From Gemmatimonadota bacterium (lineage in GTDB: Bacteria > JAAXHH01): a DNA stretch of 64,000 nt. Below the pieces are notes generated by a model, which ran no database searches, was not told the origin of the DNA, and was given only the letters and a program-made list of their open reading frames with translations. Positions 23,524 to 48,342 of the stretch are shown here, one piece after another. The translations under genes and the position numbers were made by a program. The stretch lies in the NCBI GenBank assembly GCA_026702745.1, contig JAPPBT010000025.1, positions 62,001 through 126,000 on the forward strand. Direction: 5' to 3'. The first letter of the stretch is position 1, and each line of letters starts with the position of its first letter.

Positions 23524-24036
23524 ATTCAAAAGAGAACCGTCAGAGTCAACGGAATGATTCGCGTGCCCCAGGTGCGGGTCATCAGCGCGGAAGGCGAGCA
23601 GGTCGGCATCATGGAGACCAGGGAGGCCCTGCAGCTTGCGTCCGGCGCCGACCTCGACCTCGTGGAAGTGTCGCCCGATGCCCGCCCGCCCGTCTGCAAG
23701 ATCATGGACTTTGGCAAGTACAAGTACGAGCAGAGCAAGCGGGTGAAGGAATCGCGCAAGAAGCAGCACGTAACGCAACTGAAGGAAATCCGGTTCAAGA
23801 CGCCCAAGATCAGCGAACACGACCTGGAGTACCGGGCCGCCCAGGCCCGTGATTTCCTGAAGCACGGGAACAAGGTCAAGGTGTCCGTGCGGTTCTGGGG
23901 CCGTGAGATGACGCATGTGGAACTGGGCCAGCGAAAGCTCGAGCACATGGCGCAGATACTGGAAGACGTAGGCACCATCGAACAGCGGCCCAGGCTGGAA
24001 GGCCGCAGCATGTCGCTGGTCCTCATGCCCAGGTAG
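23524..24036 (+). CDS. infC: translation initiation factor IF-3, ATT start
   Basis: 170 residues. The initiation codon is taken as ATT at 23524 because GGGAGGAAA sits just before it and the protein then begins QKRTVRVNGMIRVPQVRVI, the normal IF-3 N-terminus. No ATG, GTG or TTG is suitably placed; the frame back to 23434 reads thrS sequence. AUU starts are known for infC, where IF-3 represses its own translation by discriminating against them. The N-domain, the Lys-rich linker (YKYEQSKRVKESRKKQ) and the C-domain are all present. It lies between thrS and rpmI as in most bacteria. Confidence 0.95.
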   Translation: MQKRTVRVNGMIRVPQVRVISAEGEQVGIMETREALQLASGADLDLVEVSPDARPPVCKIMDFGKYKYEQSKRVKESRKKQHVTQLKEIRFKTPKISEHDLEYRAAQARDFLKHGNKVKVSVRFWGREMTHVELGQRKLEHMAQILEDVGTIEQRPRLEGRSMSLVLMPR

Positions 24037-39804: not shown

Positions 39805-42800
39805 TCAGGCGACGCCGGCTCCGCAGCACTTCTTGTACTTCTTCCCGCTGCCGCAGGGACAGGGCGCGTTGCGGCCGATTTTCTGCTCGACCTTGACCGG
39901 ACGGGACGGGTCCCTGTCGGAATGGCCGCCGCGACGTCCGGACCGCCTGGACCGTCCTGACCGCCCGAGTTGCTGGACGTCGGCATCCGCGTCGGATTCT
40001 TCGGTGGCCGCGCCGGCCATGCCGGCCATGGCCGGGGCTTCCTGGTGAATCGCCCGCATGTTGGTCGGAGTTTCCTGGCGGGGCATGCGCGTTTCGGCCA
40101 GTTCGGCGTTGAAGACGGTCTTGACGATCTCCTCGTCCAGCCGGTCCCACAACTCCTCGAACATGGCGTAGGCTTCCTTCTTGTACTGGATCAGCGGATC
40201 CAGCTGGCCGTAGGCACGCAGGCCGATGCCCTCCCGCATCCGGTCGATCTCGTACAGGTGCTCCTGCCAGGCGTTGTCGATGACGTGCAGGGTGGCAAAG
40301 CGCTCCAGGTCGCGCATCAGTTCCGGCGAAGGCGCCAGGGCCGCTTCCTTCCGCTCGTAGGACTCGAGCATCTTCTCGTTGGCCAGTTCCACCAGTGATT
40401 CCACGTTCAGATCCGCCATTTCCTCTTCGGCCACGGCCACGGCCACGTGGAAGTTCCGGGCCAGGTCGCCGCTCAGACCGTCCAGGTCCCAGTCCTCGGG
40501 ATAGGTCTTGGGATCGGTATATTCCGCCACCTTCCGTTCCGCCACACCTCGGATCATCTCGTTGACATCTTCCCTGAGGTTCTTGCGCTCCAGGGCGTGC
40601 AGGCGGCGGTCGTACACGGCTTCGCGCTGCTGGTTCATGACGTTGTCGTATTCGAGCACGTGCTTCCGCATGTCGAAATGCTGGGCCTCCACCCGCTTCT
40701 GGGCGCGTTCGATGGACCGGGTCACCATGGAGTGCTCGATCACTTCTCCGTCCGGAATTTTCAGGCGGTCCATGACGGAGGCGATGCGCTCGGAGCCGAA
40801 GAGCCGCATCAGGTCGTCCTCGAGCGAGAGGTAGAATCGCGACGAACCCGGATCTCCCTGGCGTCCGGAGCGACCCCGGAGCTGGCGATCGATGCGCCGG
40901 GCTTCGTGGCGTTCGGTCCCGATGATGTGGAGGCCGCCGAGATCGACTACGCCCGTACCGAGCTTGATGTCGGTGCCCCGGCCCGCCATGTTCGTAGCGA
41001 TGGTCACCGAGCCGGGCTGGCCGGCTTTCGCGATAATCTCGGACTCCTGCTGGTGGAACTTGGCGTTCAGCACGTTGTGCTTGATGCCCCGGCGCTTCAG
41101 CATGCGGCTCAGCGTTTCCGAGGCGTCGACGGAGGTGGTCCCGATCAGGATGGGCTGGCGCTTCCCGTTCAATTCCTCGATCTCATCGATGACCGCGTTA
41201 TACTTCTCGCGACGGGTGCGGAAGACCACGTCGTCGTGGTCGGTGCGCCGGATCGGTTGATTGGTCGGAATCTCCACCACGTCCATCTTGTATATCGCGA
41301 AGAACTCGCTCGCTTCCGTCACGGCCGTGCCGGTCATGCCCGCCAGCTTCTCGTACATGCGGAAGTAATTCTGTATGGTGATGGACGCGACCGTGCGCGT
41401 TTCCTGCTCGATCTTCACGCCTTCCTTGGCTTCGATGGCCTGGTGCAGGCCCTCGGCCAGCCGCCTGCCGTACATCAGCCGGCCCGTGAAGGTGTCGACC
41501 AGAACGACCTTCCCGTTCTCGATAACGTAATCGATGTCCTTTTCGTAGATCGCGTAGGCCTGGAGCAGCTGGTGCATGTTGTGGATGCGTTCGCTGCGTT
41601 CGGAGTACAGTTTCTCCAGCTCGGCCTTCCGTTCGTTCTTTTGCTCATCGGTAAGACCCGCGTCGGAGTCGATTTCCACGATGCCTTCGCCGAGATCGGG
41701 AATGATGAAGAGTTCCTGCTCGCCCGGTGAAAGAAGTTCCCGGCCCTTCTCGTTGATTTCGGTATGGCGGGTCTTCTCGTCGACTGTAAAGTAGAGCTCG
41801 TCGTCCAGCACGGGCATCTTCTTTTCCCGGATGTAGTCCCCCTCCACCTGCTGGATCAGCTTCTTTATGCCGGGTTCCTGCTGCAGTTTCAGGAGTTTCT
41901 TGTTCTTCGGCATGCCCCGCTGTGCCTGCAGCAGCTTGATCCCGGCTTCGTAGTCGTCCTCCTCGTTGTCCAGCATCGCTTCCGCATCCGCGATGATCTT
42001 CGCCGCGAAGCGGGTCTGGGCGCGCACGAGCTTCTGCACGTCTGGCAGGGACTCGGCGTATTTACCGCTGTTCGACTCGCTCACCTGTCCCGCGATGATG
42101 AGAGGCGTGCGGGCTTCGTCGATCAGGATGGAATCCACCTCGTCTACGATCGCGTAAGGGTGGCCCTGTTGCACGCGGTCCTCCAGGCGCCACTTCATGT
42201 TGTCCCGGAGGTAGTCGAATCCGAATTCGTTGGTGGTCCCGTAGGTCACGTCCGCCTGGTAGCCGGCTTTCTTCCGCTCCACGTCGGGATCGTTGTTCTG
42301 CAAGCACTCGACCGTGAGCCCGAGAAACTCGAAGACCGGTCCCATCCAGGCCCGGTCGCGCTTGGCGAGGAACTCGTTGTGCGTCACCAGGTGGGCGCCG
42401 CGGCCGGTCAGTCCGTTGAGATACATGGGGAAAAGGGCTACGAGCGTCTTGCCCTCACCGGTTGCCATCTCGGCGATCTTGCCTTCGTGGAGCACGATCC
42501 CGCCGATGATCTGCACGTCGTAGGGCGTCATGTCCCACACCATGTCGCCCTGGCCGGGGACAAACCACGACCTGCCGATCATGCGCCTGCAGGCTTCCTT
42601 GACCAGGCCATAGGCTTCCGGAAGGATGTCGTCCAGGTCCTCACCGTCTTCCCAACGGGCCCGGAACTCCCGCGTTTTCTCGGGGAACTGGGCTTCGTCA
42701 AGCGTCTGGTATTCGTCGGCCCATTCATTGACGGCCTCGACGAGCGGTTCCATCCGCTTGACGTCCCGGTCGTGCTTGGTCCCGAAAGCGCTGGCGATCA

Positions 42801-42822
42801 GGTTTTTGATCGGGGTGATCAT
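39805..42822 (-). CDS. secA: protein translocase ATPase SecA
   Basis: 1005 residues from the ATG at 42822 (MITPIKNLIASAFG), with AAGGA nine bases upstream. The frame open to 42912 would add an improbable Pro/Arg-rich leader. Walker A MATGEGKTLVALFP, DEVDSILIDEARTPL, the preprotein cross-linking domain and helical scaffold are present. The C-terminal SEC-C zinc motif CPCGSGKKYKKCC is also present. The segment before the zinc motif (about 940-985) contains RSGRSRRSGRRGG-type low complexity. SecA drives Sec-dependent export, needed here for the secreted protease and outer-membrane proteins. Confidence 0.97.
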   Translation of the reverse strand: MITPIKNLIASAFGTKHDRDVKRMEPLVEAVNEWADEYQTLDEAQFPEKTREFRARWEDGEDLDDILPEAYGLVKEACRRMIGRSWFVPGQGDMVWDMTPYDVQIIGGIVLHEGKIAEMATGEGKTLVALFPMYLNGLTGRGAHLVTHNEFLAKRDRAWMGPVFEFLGLTVECLQNNDPDVERKKAGYQADVTYGTTNEFGFDYLRDNMKWRLEDRVQQGHPYAIVDEVDSILIDEARTPLIIAGQVSESNSGKYAESLPDVQKLVRAQTRFAAKIIADAEAMLDNEEDDYEAGIKLLQAQRGMPKNKKLLKLQQEPGIKKLIQQVEGDYIREKKMPVLDDELYFTVDEKTRHTEINEKGRELLSPGEQELFIIPDLGEGIVEIDSDAGLTDEQKNERKAELEKLYSERSERIHNMHQLLQAYAIYEKDIDYVIENGKVVLVDTFTGRLMYGRRLAEGLHQAIEAKEGVKIEQETRTVASITIQNYFRMYEKLAGMTGTAVTEASEFFAIYKMDVVEIPTNQPIRRTDHDDVVFRTRREKYNAVIDEIEELNGKRQPILIGTTSVDASETLSRMLKRRGIKHNVLNAKFHQQESEIIAKAGQPGSVTIATNMAGRGTDIKLGTGVVDLGGLHIIGTERHEARRIDRQLRGRSGRQGDPGSSRFYLSLEDDLMRLFGSERIASVMDRLKIPDGEVIEHSMVTRSIERAQKRVEAQHFDMRKHVLEYDNVMNQQREAVYDRRLHALERKNLREDVNEMIRGVAERKVAEYTDPKTYPEDWDLDGLSGDLARNFHVAVAVAEEEMADLNVESLVELANEKMLESYERKEAALAPSPELMRDLERFATLHVIDNAWQEHLYEIDRMREGIGLRAYGQLDPLIQYKKEAYAMFEELWDRLDEEIVKTVFNAELAETRMPRQETPTNMRAIHQEAPAMAGMAGAATEESDADADVQQLGRSGRSRRSGRRGGHSDRDPSRPVKVEQKIGRNAPCPCGSGKKYKKCCGAGVA

Positions 42823-42995
42823 GGTCTCTGGTCCTTGGTTCGGCGCCCCGCGGGCGCGCGCTGGCCGGAAGCTGGTCCGGTCTAGCCCAGGCTCGACGGC
42901 CGTATTCTCCAACCATGAAACTTAAGGGAGCGGCCGGATGGGGACAACCCTTTTCTTCGAATCGGAACGGTCGGATCGGGCCTTCTGCCGCCCAT

Positions 42996-43032
42996 GAAAA
43001 AACCCCGGCGGGCAGGCGTGCGCGCCGGGGTT
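42996..43032 (-). terminator. intrinsic terminator of the sigma-factor gene
   Basis: On the minus strand AACCCCGGCG pairs with CGCCGGGGTT around a 12-base loop, followed by TTTTTT. It lies 35 bases past the sigma-factor stop. This is the clearest rho-independent terminator in the window. Confidence 0.85.
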
Positions 43033-43066
43033 GCGTGCGGTTTTCGAACGGCAGGACATGCCCCTG

Positions 43067-43942
43067 TCAGTCGTCGTCTCTGAGGTAGGGGCTGAGCTTG
43101 CCGCTGCGGGTCGCGTGACGCAAACGCTGCAGCGCCCGTTCCTTGATCTGGCGGATCCGTTCCCGCGTCAGGCCGAAACGAATGCCGATCTCCTCGAGCG
43201 TGTGGGCCCTTTCCGAACCCACGCCGAAGTACAGTCGGATCACTTCCGCCTCGCGGGGCGGAAGGGTGTCCAGCACCTTGCCGACGTCCGACTTCAGAAA
43301 CTGCAGCATGGTGCTCTCGTCCGGCGCCGTCTGCATTTCATCGGGCAGCAGGTCGAGCAGGCTGCGGTCGTCGTCGTGATTGAAGGGTACGTCCAGGGAA
43401 ATGCAGTGGCTGAACGAACTGAGAGCCTCGTTGATCTCTTCGACCGAAATATCCATTTCCTCGGCGATTTCATCGATATCGGGCTTGCGGCCGAGTTCGT
43501 GCTGCAAATGCTTCGAGGTCTGTTTGATGCGGCGTAGTTCTTCGGAGCGGTTGACGGGTACGCGAACGGTCCTCGACTGGTTGGCGATGGACTGTATGAT
43601 GGCCTGGCGTATCCACCAGACGGCATAGGAGATGAACTTGTAACCCCTGGTTTCGTCGAATTTCTTGGCGGCCCGCATGAGGCCCATGTTGCCCTCGTTG
43701 ATCATGTCCAGCAGGGGCAGGCCGTAGTTCTGGTACTGACGGGCCACGCTGACGACGAACCTGAGATTGGCCTTCACCAGCTTGTCCAGCGCATTCTGGT
43801 CGCCCTGCTTGATCAGACGGGCCAGCCGCACTTCCTCCTCGGCCGTGATCAAGGGATACTTCGACATTTCGGCCAGATAGCGGTACAGCGCCTGCTCGTA
43901 CCTGGCCCCGTTTCCATAGGATTCCTGGTATGATGTGCCGAT
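43067..43942 (-). CDS. rpoD: RNA polymerase sigma factor, RpoD-like, ATC start
   Basis: 291 residues if started at ATC 43942. This codon follows GGGAGGTGA by six bases, and the frame has a stop seven bases farther up (TGA 43949-43951). The first ATG in frame (43867) would cut region 1.2 (...ALYRYLAEM-SKYPLITAEEE), whose upstream half is conserved. Regions: 1.2 at about 16-45, 2 (NLRFVVSVARQYQNYGLPLLD, then FISYAVWWIRQAI), 3, and 4 (LPPREAEVIRLYFGVG and the HTH LTRERIRQIKERALQRL). Region 1.1 is absent, as in the short primary sigma of Bacteroidota. It is a likely housekeeping sigma factor of this genome, but only one is visible. Confidence 0.85.
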   Translation of the reverse strand: MGTSYQESYGNGARYEQALYRYLAEMSKYPLITAEEEVRLARLIKQGDQNALDKLVKANLRFVVSVARQYQNYGLPLLDMINEGNMGLMRAAKKFDETRGYKFISYAVWWIRQAIIQSIANQSRTVRVPVNRSEELRRIKQTSKHLQHELGRKPDIDEIAEEMDISVEEINEALSSFSHCISLDVPFNHDDDRSLLDLLPDEMQTAPDESTMLQFLKSDVGKVLDTLPPREAEVIRLYFGVGSERAHTLEEIGIRFGLTRERIRQIKERALQRLRHATRSGKLSPYLRDDD

Positions 43943-44302
43943 CTTGCCTCACCTCCCCCTCGCGACATGCGCAATGCGCTTCTGTCCCGTCCGCTCCGGC
44001 CTATGCGGGCCCGTTTCCCGTTATCCCGTGATCGAATGTGGTGTGAACGGTGTGCTGAACGATGCGTGCCATACGGGGTCCTGTAAAAGCTGTCCAGAAT
44101 ATGCGAACGGCATAGACGCCATCGTCAGACAGACGGAAAGGACAATACAGCGGGTGCGCGTTCGAAATCGATAATTGCGTCGTTGCTTAAGCCAGTGGGA
44201 ACCGGGATGGACCGCCGTCGAATGCGACCGCGATCCAACATGCAAGGTCCATACGGACCATCGACAAGGACTGGCCCGGACGAACGGTCCCAGTGTGAGT
44301 AA

Positions 44303-44329
44303 ATTATACCGAAACGCCCGTCAAGTCAA
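44303..44329 (-). promoter_or_regulatory. promoter of the sigma-factor gene
   Basis: Minus-strand TATAAT (44303-44308) is perfect. TTGACT (44324-44329) lies 15 bases away; CTTGAC one base farther gives a 16-base spacer. AAAACAC lies just upstream, matching the tRNA promoter. The leader to the coding start is about 350 bases. Confidence 0.6.
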
Positions 44330-44346
44330 GTGTTTTCCCTTTAAGA

Positions 44347-44375
44347 TTGACAGGTGAAGGGCCGGTGGATAGATT
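44347..44375 (+). promoter_or_regulatory. promoter of the purSLQ genes
   Basis: TTGACA (44347-44352), 17 bases, TAGATT (44370-44375, four of six). It is divergent from the sigma-factor promoter, and the two -35 boxes lie 18 bases apart. The purS ATG follows at 44443. Confidence 0.6.
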
Positions 44376-44442
44376 GGGCACGCTCAAAACCGGACGCCGA
44401 CCCCACGAATGGAGATCCTTCCCGCGAAGGAAACAGGAGCGG

Positions 44443-44931
44443 ATGGCCGCGGAATCGAAGACCCGGCGTATTGCCGTCGTGAACAGGAAAGACGTGGTGG
44501 ACGCCGTAGGCGAAGGTCTCCGCGGCGATATCCTCGACCTGGGCATCGGGGGCGTCGAGGGCGTTCGGCACGTCCGCCTCTACGCGCTCCACGGCGCCCT
44601 GTCGACCGCCGAACTGGACCGGATCACCACCGGTCTGCTCGCCGATCCGGTCACCCAGGAACATCTCGAAATCGCCGAAACGGGCCTGCCTGTCGTCCCC
44701 GGAGAGTGGGGCGTGGAAGTGTGGTTCAGGCCCGGAGTGACCGACGCCGTGGGCGAAACGGCACTGAAAGGCAGCCGCGACCTGGGCGTCGCGGGGATTG
44801 AATCGGTGGACACCGGGCGAGGCTACATCCTTGCGGGTTCGCTCATCCGGTCGCAGGTCGACACCATTTGCCGTCGGCTGCTGGCCAACGACGTGATCGA
44901 AAGATACGCGTGTTACGAAGGGGGACAATGA
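44443..44931 (+). CDS. purS: phosphoribosylformylglycinamidine synthase PurS-like subunit (two repeats)
   Basis: 162 residues from the ATG at 44443. Usual PurS has about 80 residues. Here two PurS-like halves are visible, about 8-80 (RRIAVVNRKDVVDAVGEGL, then ...LYALHGALSTAELDRI) and about 88-160 (VEVWFRPGVTDAVGETALKG, then GIESVDTGRGYIL). The second half is more canonical. PurS bridges PurL and PurQ in the FGAM synthase complex of purine synthesis. The stop overlaps the purL ATG (ATGA). The frame back to 44347 starts inside the promoter and is rejected. Confidence 0.8.
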   Translation: MAAESKTRRIAVVNRKDVVDAVGEGLRGDILDLGIGGVEGVRHVRLYALHGALSTAELDRITTGLLADPVTQEHLEIAETGLPVVPGEWGVEVWFRPGVTDAVGETALKGSRDLGVAGIESVDTGRGYILAGSLIRSQVDTICRRLLANDVIERYACYEGGQ

Positions 44932-47357
44932 CCTTCGAGTCCGACGACACCGTCGAGACCTTCTCCCTGCTGAAGGCGACCGACGATGAAATGACGCAGC
45001 TGAGCCGGGACGGCATGCTGGCGCTCAACCTGGAGGAAATGCGGTCGATCCGGCAACATTTCAGCGTGCTGGGCCGCGACCCGACGGACGTGGAAATGGA
45101 GACGCTCGCCCAGACCTGGTCCGAGCACTGCAAGCACAAGGTCTTCAACGGGGTCATCGACTACGTATCGGGCCGGAAGACGGAGCGTATCGACAACCTC
45201 TTCGCCCGCACCATCAGGAAGGCGACCGAAGACATCCGCCAGGCCCAGGGGCCGAAGGACCGATGTGTATCCGTGTTCGTCGACAACGCCGGGATCATCG
45301 AATTCGACGACGACTATCATCTCGTCTTCAAGGTAGAAACGCATAACCATCCCTCGGCGCTGGATCCCTACGGCGGCGCCAACACGGGCATCGGCGGGGT
45401 CATCCGCGATCCGCTCGGGACGGGCCTGGGCGGCAAGCCCATTTTCAACACGGACGTCTTCTGCTTCGCGCCGCCCGACTTCCCCTATGAGGATCTGCCG
45501 GAAGGCGTATTGCACCCGAAACGCGTCTTCAAGGGCGTCGTGGCCGGCGTCCGGGATTACGGCAACCGCATGGGCATACCGACCGTCAACGGGGCCATCC
45601 TGTTCGACGAGCGGTACCTGGGCAACCCGCTGGTCTACTGCGGCACGGCGGCCATCATACCGGTCGACCGTTGCGAGAAATCGGCCAAACCGGGCGATCT
45701 CGTCGTCACCATCGGCGGGCGGACGGGCCGAGACGGGATCCACGGGGCCACGTTCTCGTCCATCGAACTGACCGACGCTTCGGAATCCACCGCCACGCAG
45801 GCCGTTCAAATCGGGAATCCCATCGAGGAGAAGAAGATCCTCGACGTCCTGATGCAGGCGCGGGACCGCGGGCTCTACCGGAACATCACCGACTGCGGCG
45901 CCGGCGGGTTCTCATCGGCCATCGGCGAAATGGGAGAGGATACGGGCGCGGAAGTGCACCTGGAGAAGGCGCCCTTGAAATACGGCGGCCTGAAACCGTG
46001 GGAGATCTTTCTCTCGGAATCCCAGGAACGCATGATTCTGGCCGTTCCCCCCGAGCACATCGAGTCCTTAAGGGACCTCTGCGCGAGCGAGGATGTCGAG
46101 GCCTCGGTGATCGGCGAATTCACCGGCGACCGGCGGCTCAGGGTCACCCACAAGCCCGATGCGGGAGAAAGCCGGATCACCGTCGCGGACCTGGATATGG
46201 AGTTCCTGCACAAAGGGGTGCCGCGCATCGTCCGGACGGCCCGGTGGGATCCTCCGGACCATCCCGAGCCTCCCGTGGCCGGCCGCCCCGGTCCCGCGCA
46301 GAGCCTGGTCCGGCTGCTGTCGTCCTGGAACGTGGCGAGCAAGGAGTGGGTCGTCCGCCAGTACGATCACGAGGTACAGGGCGGAAGCGTGCTGAAACCG
46401 CTGCAGGGCGCTCGCAACGACGGTCCGGGCGACGCCGCTATCGTGCGTCCCGTGCTCTCGTCGGACCGGGGCGTCATCGTCGCAAACGGCATCAACCCCG
46501 CCTATGGCGACGTAGATCCGTACTGGATGGCGGCATCGGCCATCGACGAGGCCCTGCGCCAGATCACTTGCGTCGGAGGCCGTATCGACCGGACCGCGCT
46601 GCTGGACAACTTCTGCTGGGGCAACCCGGACAAACCGGACCGCCTCGCCGCGCTGGTCCGCGCGGCCAAGGCCTGTTACGACGTCGCGGTAGCCTACGGC
46701 ACGCCTTTCATCTCGGGGAAGGACAGTTTTTATAACGAGTTCTCCGACGGCGAACGGACCATCGCCATCCCGCCCACGCTGCTCATTTCAGCCATCTGCG
46801 TGATGGACGATGTCCGCAAAGCGGTCAGCATGGACGTCAAGTCGCCCGGAAACAGCATTTACGTCGTGGGACGCACGGGCGACGAACTGGGCGGTTCCCG
46901 GTACTACCGCATGCTCGGATACATCGGCCGGAACGTGCCGACCGTGGACGCCGCCGCCGGGAGCGGGACCATGAACCGGTTGCACGGGGCCATCTCGCAA
47001 GGCCTCGTGGCCGCCTGCCACGACTGCTCCGAGGGCGGCCTTGCCGTGGCCGCGGCGGAAATGGCCTTCGCGGGTGGATACGGCATGGCCCTGGACTTAA
47101 GCGCCCTGCCCCGGGACCCGGAATCGGACCGTGACGACACCGTCCTCTTTTCCGAGTCGAACAGCCGCTTCGTGGTGGAGGTGCCCGGTGGCCGGGAAGC
47201 CGAATTCGAAGCCCAATTGGAAGGAAGCCCATTCGGCCGCGTGGGGACCGTGACCGGGGAGGACCGCTTCCTCGTGCGCGGACTGGGCGGCGATGAGATC
47301 GTTTCTACGGAACTGTCCATATTGAAGGAAGCATGGCAGCGGCCCCTGCGGTGGTGA
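44928..47357 (+). CDS. purL: phosphoribosylformylglycinamidine synthase, PurL subunit
   Basis: 809 residues, longer than the small PurL (about 740) and shorter than the fused form. Linker EMETLAQTWSEHCKHKVF, the ATP/substrate loop VETHNHPSALDPYGGANTGIGG, GGRTGRDGIHGATFSS and the second half GKDSFYNE and SEGGLAVAAAEMAFAGGYG match the family. It makes FGAM from FGAR with ammonia from PurQ. Start 44928 is chosen because it overlaps purS; the frame back to 44868 reads purS in another frame. Confidence 0.95.
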   Translation: MTFESDDTVETFSLLKATDDEMTQLSRDGMLALNLEEMRSIRQHFSVLGRDPTDVEMETLAQTWSEHCKHKVFNGVIDYVSGRKTERIDNLFARTIRKATEDIRQAQGPKDRCVSVFVDNAGIIEFDDDYHLVFKVETHNHPSALDPYGGANTGIGGVIRDPLGTGLGGKPIFNTDVFCFAPPDFPYEDLPEGVLHPKRVFKGVVAGVRDYGNRMGIPTVNGAILFDERYLGNPLVYCGTAAIIPVDRCEKSAKPGDLVVTIGGRTGRDGIHGATFSSIELTDASESTATQAVQIGNPIEEKKILDVLMQARDRGLYRNITDCGAGGFSSAIGEMGEDTGAEVHLEKAPLKYGGLKPWEIFLSESQERMILAVPPEHIESLRDLCASEDVEASVIGEFTGDRRLRVTHKPDAGESRITVADLDMEFLHKGVPRIVRTARWDPPDHPEPPVAGRPGPAQSLVRLLSSWNVASKEWVVRQYDHEVQGGSVLKPLQGARNDGPGDAAIVRPVLSSDRGVIVANGINPAYGDVDPYWMAASAIDEALRQITCVGGRIDRTALLDNFCWGNPDKPDRLAALVRAAKACYDVAVAYGTPFISGKDSFYNEFSDGERTIAIPPTLLISAICVMDDVRKAVSMDVKSPGNSIYVVGRTGDELGGSRYYRMLGYIGRNVPTVDAAAGSGTMNRLHGAISQGLVAACHDCSEGGLAVAAAEMAFAGGYGMALDLSALPRDPESDRDDTVLFSESNSRFVVEVPGGREAEFEAQLEGSPFGRVGTVTGEDRFLVRGLGGDEIVSTELSILKEAWQRPLRW

Positions 47358-47493
47358 TGCCGCGAGGGAGGCCGTACGGGGGCTCGATGGCTGGCGACCC
47401 GTCCGGCAGCGTCCCGGCGAACGTCGGCCCAACCGGTGGCGTCGCGTCCAGCGGCCGTCCTCCATGCCGTTCCTATATGACCCTGGAGCATCC

Positions 47494-48342
47494 ATGTCCA
47501 AAGTCTCGGTCCTGATACTGCGCGCCGCGGGGATCAACTGCGACGAGGAAACGGCCCACGCCTTCCGCCTCGCCGGCGCGGAGCGGGTGGATCCCGTCCA
47601 CATCAATGCCTTCATCCAGGGGCGCCGCCGCCTGTCCGAGTACGACGTGCTGGTCCTGTCCGGCGGGTTTTCCTACGGCGACGATCTCTCCGGAGGCAAA
47701 GTGCTCGCCAACGAGATGCAGTGCAAGCTGATGGAGGACGTGGAATCGTTCATCGGGGCAGGCAAACTCATCCTCGGCATCTGCAACGGATTCCAGGTGC
47801 TGGTCAAGATGGGGCTGCTTCCCCAGACGGAAACGGGTGGCAGGCGGCAGGAAGCAACGGTGTTCTACAACGACTCCGGCAAGTTCGAGTGCCGCTGGGT
47901 CTACCTGCGCAGGAACCCCGGCAGTCCCTGCGTCTTCACCCGGGACATGCCGGAGACTATTTACATACCGGTCGCGAACGGGGAAGGCAAGGTCATGCTG
48001 GCGTCCGAGGATGTGCGGCTTCGGCTGGGGCCGGGCGGCCACATCGCATTGCAGTACGTCAACCCGCCCTGGGTGGATGTAGGGGCGGCCACGAGTGAGG
48101 TGATCGGGGCGGCCGCCCTGGAGGCAACGGCTGAGACGGCCTATCCCTGGAGTCCCAACGGCTCGGTGGACGCCATTGCCGGGATCTGCGACGCCACGGG
48201 ACGGATCTTCGGGCTCATGCCTCATCCGGAGCGTTATACCCACCCGACCCATCATCCCCGGTGGACCCGGGAGGGAGGCAGGGAGCCGGACGGCCTGCAT
48301 ATCTTCCGGAACGCCGTGAACTATGTCCGCGGGGTCCTGTAG
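47494..48342 (+). CDS. purQ: phosphoribosylformylglycinamidine synthase, glutaminase subunit PurQ
   Basis: 282 residues from the ATG at 47494 (MSKVSVLILRAAGINCDEE). Class I glutamine amidotransferase: nucleophile Cys in LILGICNGFQVL (about 95), and His/Glu in MPHPERYTH near the C-terminus. GGFSYGDDLSGGK is diagnostic for PurQ. It supplies ammonia to PurL. A 136-base gap separates it from purL. Confidence 0.94.
   Translation: MSKVSVLILRAAGINCDEETAHAFRLAGAERVDPVHINAFIQGRRRLSEYDVLVLSGGFSYGDDLSGGKVLANEMQCKLMEDVESFIGAGKLILGICNGFQVLVKMGLLPQTETGGRRQEATVFYNDSGKFECRWVYLRRNPGSPCVFTRDMPETIYIPVANGEGKVMLASEDVRLRLGPGGHIALQYVNPPWVDVGAATSEVIGAAALEATAETAYPWSPNGSVDAIAGICDATGRIFGLMPHPERYTHPTHHPRWTREGGREPDGLHIFRNAVNYVRGVL

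Follow-up and report, generated by a model that had tools for sequence, protein, structure and literature searches.

The window analysed here, a 64,000-nucleotide stretch of a Gemmatimonadota genome, encodes on its minus strand a sigma-70 factor of group 1/2 type (43067–43942). When opened at an ATC codon (43940–43942, minus strand; AUC in the mRNA), its frame comprises 291 codons, from 43942 to a TGA stop at 43069–43067. secA lies further along the same strand, and between the two genes we read from the sequence a likely terminator, a CCCCGGC...GCCGGGG stem followed by T6 (42997–43030, minus strand); a terminator pattern scan did not pick up this stem, probably because of its long loop. purQ-purL-purS lies divergently upstream. 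This order of pur genes, sigma gene and secA (39808–48339; L151–L154) is common to all three families compared below; the pur names are our reading of the proteins, and the G015 stretch stops inside purL, with purQ not seen there. Also upstream of the sigma gene, GTATGGCACGCATCGTT (44058–44074, minus strand) is identical in 12/12 species of the genus, within an intergenic region that is otherwise variable; it is perhaps a promoter or operator, and the other genera showed no recognisable copy. The window further contains infC, the gene for IF3 (23524–24036, plus strand), which begins ATT CAA AAG and serves below both as a positive control and as the proposed regulator.

The sigma frame contains no ATG, GTG or TTG between an in-frame TGA (43949–43951, minus strand) and the first in-frame ATG (43865–43867, minus strand; Met26 of the ATC-started protein), the first canonical codon being at index 27 of the open frame. 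The TGA excludes an in-frame start farther upstream. CTG occurs in the N-terminal stretch of the frame only at codons 19 and 23, both within a conserved block, and a GTG at 43952 is out of the sigma frame in the window genome. The minus-strand context of the start reads ...AGGGGGAGGTGAGGCAAGATCGGCACATCATAC..., in which an extended Shine-Dalgarno (SD) sequence, GGGAGGTGA (43949–43957, minus strand), includes both this GTG and the TGA and is followed by GGC AAG and then by ATC. Thus, ATC 43942 lies six bases downstream of a strong SD, as a sequence-only reading of this DNA had proposed.

That reading had also held that a start at ATG 43867 would cut conserved region 1.2, and the frame, Pfam and structure alignments bear this out. 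All four Pfam domains (regions 1.2, 2, 3 and 4) score above cut-off in the window protein, which identifies it as a sigma-70 factor of group 1/2 type. Region 1.2 spans residues 22–49; since the match extends across Met26, a start there would truncate the region. Moreover, the protein aligns with the SigA and RpoS structures from residue 10–12 on. Its length, which had been likened to that of the short RpoD of Bacteroidota, indeed falls into that class (about 287–291 aa).

We compared the locus across 16 species of the phylum, belonging to five genera and three families, and found an ortholog of the sigma gene in 16/16. ATC stands exactly six bases past GGGAGGTG(A/G) in 15 of the 16 species; the spacer bases vary while the SD is kept, as GGGAGGTGA in the ATC species except G003, which has GGGAGGTGG. 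The remaining species, G012, has ATT at a spacing of 5. The TGA inside the SD is the same in 14/16 species. In G003 it is replaced by TGG, which brings upstream, unconserved GTGs into frame; in G012, an ATG lies two codons past the ATT, and a one-base frame shift places the GTG inside the SD in frame. No canonical alternative start was found in the other 14 species. Because of the downstream ATG and the in-frame GTG, G012 is ambiguous and may not use its ATT; the lineage (L016/L180) is possibly shifting to a canonical start. The expectation that the ATC or ATT and its SD would be retained in relatives, with region 1.2 in frame, was thus borne out, and a near-cognate start is strongly supported phylum-wide (15/16 ATC, 1/16 ATT). 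The opposite outcome, relatives using an ATG elsewhere, was not seen in general, with G012 as the one ambiguous case.

The codons between ATC and Met26 behave as coding sequence. Among the 25 codon columns 2–26, 12, 3 and 22 are variable at positions 1, 2 and 3, respectively, an in-frame coding signature similar to that seen elsewhere in the gene (20/8/67 of 74 and 48/12/179 of 192). Fourfold sites differ by 61–66% between genera, near saturation, so that an ATG at codon 1 had ample opportunity to appear. Several internal Ile codons are likewise ATC in 15–16 of the 16 species; the preference for C over T at codon 1 is therefore not special on its own, and the evidence lies in the absence of ATG.

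We examined the ribosome-binding site and its possible RNA partners. The 16S tail was taken from relatives, as that of the genome itself was not found; it reads TGGATCACCTCCTT in six of them, was confirmed in G005 as the end of the SSU rRNA, and forms 8 pairs with GGAGGTGA, the complementary part of the SD. The genome has an ordinary tRNA-Met(CAT) whose stem is of the initiator type; a dedicated initiator tRNA bearing a GAT anticodon was not among the tRNA pattern hits. No common RNA fold masking the sigma start was seen, the start codon being mostly unpaired, and the start region had no Rfam match.

infC starts at ATT in 16/16 species, including the copy at 23524 for which this start had been claimed, and the layout of GGAGGTGA, five to seven bases and ATT recurs at infC of G012, G013 and G015, which represent three genera. 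Within the genome itself, GGAGGTGA followed by N5–7 and ATH occurs 10 times, compared with 5 times for the reversed control. The sigma match alone opens a convincing gene; the remaining matches, those that were read, are internal coding sequence or open short or doubtful frames. When the window was compared with its G003 counterpart, in a comparison that left infC concealed behind an antisense frame, 52 coding-like frames were kept and, among those flagged, only the sigma gene was convincing, the others lying at the window edge, being very short, or overlapping or running antisense to other frames. The frr gene of G013 was considered as a second ATC start and rejected: a GTG inside GGAGGTGAAACAG is in frame, which makes an ordinary GTG start likely.

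AUC is a very rare start codon, and 30S complexes formed on codons other than AUG, GUG or UUG are destabilised by IF3. Comparison across the phylum points with high confidence to initiation of the sigma gene at AUC. We consider it likely that the gene produces a short sigma-70 factor that starts at AUC with fMet, with the SD compensating for the weak codon and IF3 limiting the output. In this mechanism, initiator tRNA-fMet would pair with the first two bases of AUC and mispair at the third, and the 8-base SD pairing, together with the near-fixed spacing, would retain the 30S subunit long enough for initiation. IF3, by rejecting codons other than AUG, GUG or UUG, would keep sigma output low, and output would rise as IF3 activity drops, as for infC itself. 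The low output is inferred; the sensitivity of the sigma start to IF3 is plausible by analogy with infC, sigR and ccpN. Both infC and Streptomyces sigR are repressed through IF3 at starts other than AUG, GUG or UUG (PMC5472188). The first residue of the sigma factor would be Met, and codon 2, Gly or Ser in all species, would suit removal of this initiator Met. The AUC start thus yields a short, testable prediction: residues 2–25 include the predicted N-terminal peptide GTSYQESYGNGAR, and an N-terminal peptide SKYPLITAEEEVR is incompatible with it.

The AUC codon could instead be a weak-start device that sets a fixed low level, or one fully compensated by the SD, with the level of IF3 carrying no regulatory signal. 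Nothing in the analysis points to a varying IF3 activity in these bacteria, and for the sigR GTC start a rise in translation upon oxidative stress could not be demonstrated (PMC5472188). On the other hand, sigR does respond to the IF3 level and to IF3 mutants (PMC5472188), and infC of the same genomes retains its ATT start, so that the IF3 feedback loop probably operates. We regard a fixed level as a real possibility, somewhat short of even.

A shorter sigma factor starting at ATG 43867, with the upstream conservation having another cause, is very improbable. This ATG is the first canonical in-frame codon and is present in 16/16 species; nevertheless, codons 2–26 carry the coding signature in the sigma frame, Met26 falls inside region 1.2, and the conserved extended SD would be left about 80 nt away without a purpose. 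We rejected it as the start for these reasons. We give even less credence to a start at the out-of-frame GTG 43952 with a shift of frame in the opening codons. Being part of the SD, this GTG occurs in 16/16 species, but as a start codon it would have to overlap the SD; furthermore, we saw no obvious slippery sequence, conservation of the sigma frame begins already at codon 2, and the same GTG is in frame in G012, so that the shift would not be conserved. Finally, that the missing start reflects a sequencing or assembly error, a concern given that the genomes all appear to be metagenome assemblies, is ruled out for practical purposes by the same arrangement in 16 independently assembled species from different genera and projects.

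With the AUC start preferred on these grounds, we asked which sigma factor the gene encodes. The sequence-only reading had taken it for the primary, housekeeping sigma; the gene is indeed a sigma-70 gene, of group 1/2 type, whereas its housekeeping role is putative. The genome has four sigma-70 genes, the window gene and three others, and in trees it is the paralog C79 that falls closest to the RpoD proteins of Bacteroidota and other genomes (support for the C79 + RpoD clade, 61/84), with a long separate stem leading to the window gene. Placing the window gene with those RpoD proteins was rejected marginally, at a borderline p-AU of 0.047. The window protein also missed the curated RpoD cut-offs, scoring 308 of 555 bits for the best RpoD model and 269 of 354 bits for TIGR02393 (C-terminal domain). 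By the tree, C79 rather than the window gene is probably the RpoD ortholog. C79 (G000:C79:67038-67865; L002) and its orthologs have an apparent GTG start in most species, with an SD core AGGAG about 12 nt upstream, and ATG in G015; most of the other sigma paralogs have a plausible ATG start. Across genera, however, the window sigma is 86–92% identical and C79 67–81%. Such conservation, higher than that of C79, is unusual for an accessory sigma factor, and the AUC-started sigma may yet have a primary role. Were it the main growth sigma of the phylum, the level of IF3 would set that of the principal sigma factor and couple global transcription to translation initiation. The proposed tie of IF3 to global transcription depends on this role, which we consider unlikely.

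Gene callers accept only ATG, GTG and TTG as starts, and conserved near-cognate starts are thus easily missed; a caller restricted to canonical starts would truncate the window sigma inside a conserved domain. Several known systems resemble the arrangement described here. The infC gene, which starts at AUU, AUC or AUA, likewise places a near-cognate AUH codon after a strong SD, with ATT in these genomes, but it is self-regulating, whereas IF3 would act on the sigma gene as a distinct target. S. aureus and B. subtilis ccpN (AUA) and S. aureus cvfC1 (AUU) also combine a conserved near-cognate start with an extended SD, the S. aureus genes giving about 10–30% of AUG output, and ccpN encodes a transcription regulator. 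These genes do not encode sigma factors, are conserved within Bacillota, and were demonstrated by ribosome profiling and reporter assays (PMC13009471). The short RpoD of Bacteroidota shares with the window protein the lack of region 1.1, the presence of regions 1.2 to 4 and a similar length, but it starts at ATG in the loci inspected, the nearest outside the phylum, while the window protein falls in a long-stemmed clade of its own.

A further close parallel is Streptomyces sigR, an IF3-repressed gene with a GTC start and the SD AGGAGGTG, in which 34 species comprise 32 with GTC and 2 with GTT (PMC5472188). Both are sigma-factor genes with a non-canonical start, an extended SD and group-wide conservation that includes a third-base variant. 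SigR, a stress sigma, has RsrA as its anti-sigma partner, and experiments have demonstrated that IF3 controls sigR; no anti-sigma gene was recognised next to the window gene, which uses AUC, encodes a group 1/2-type sigma-70 factor and is known here from sequence. The window gene thus represents a second lineage of sigma factors, not related to that of Streptomyces sigR, that joins an extended SD to a codon of the kind IF3 rejects. The same layout in two unrelated lineages suggests more than one origin for this way of limiting sigma-factor supply.
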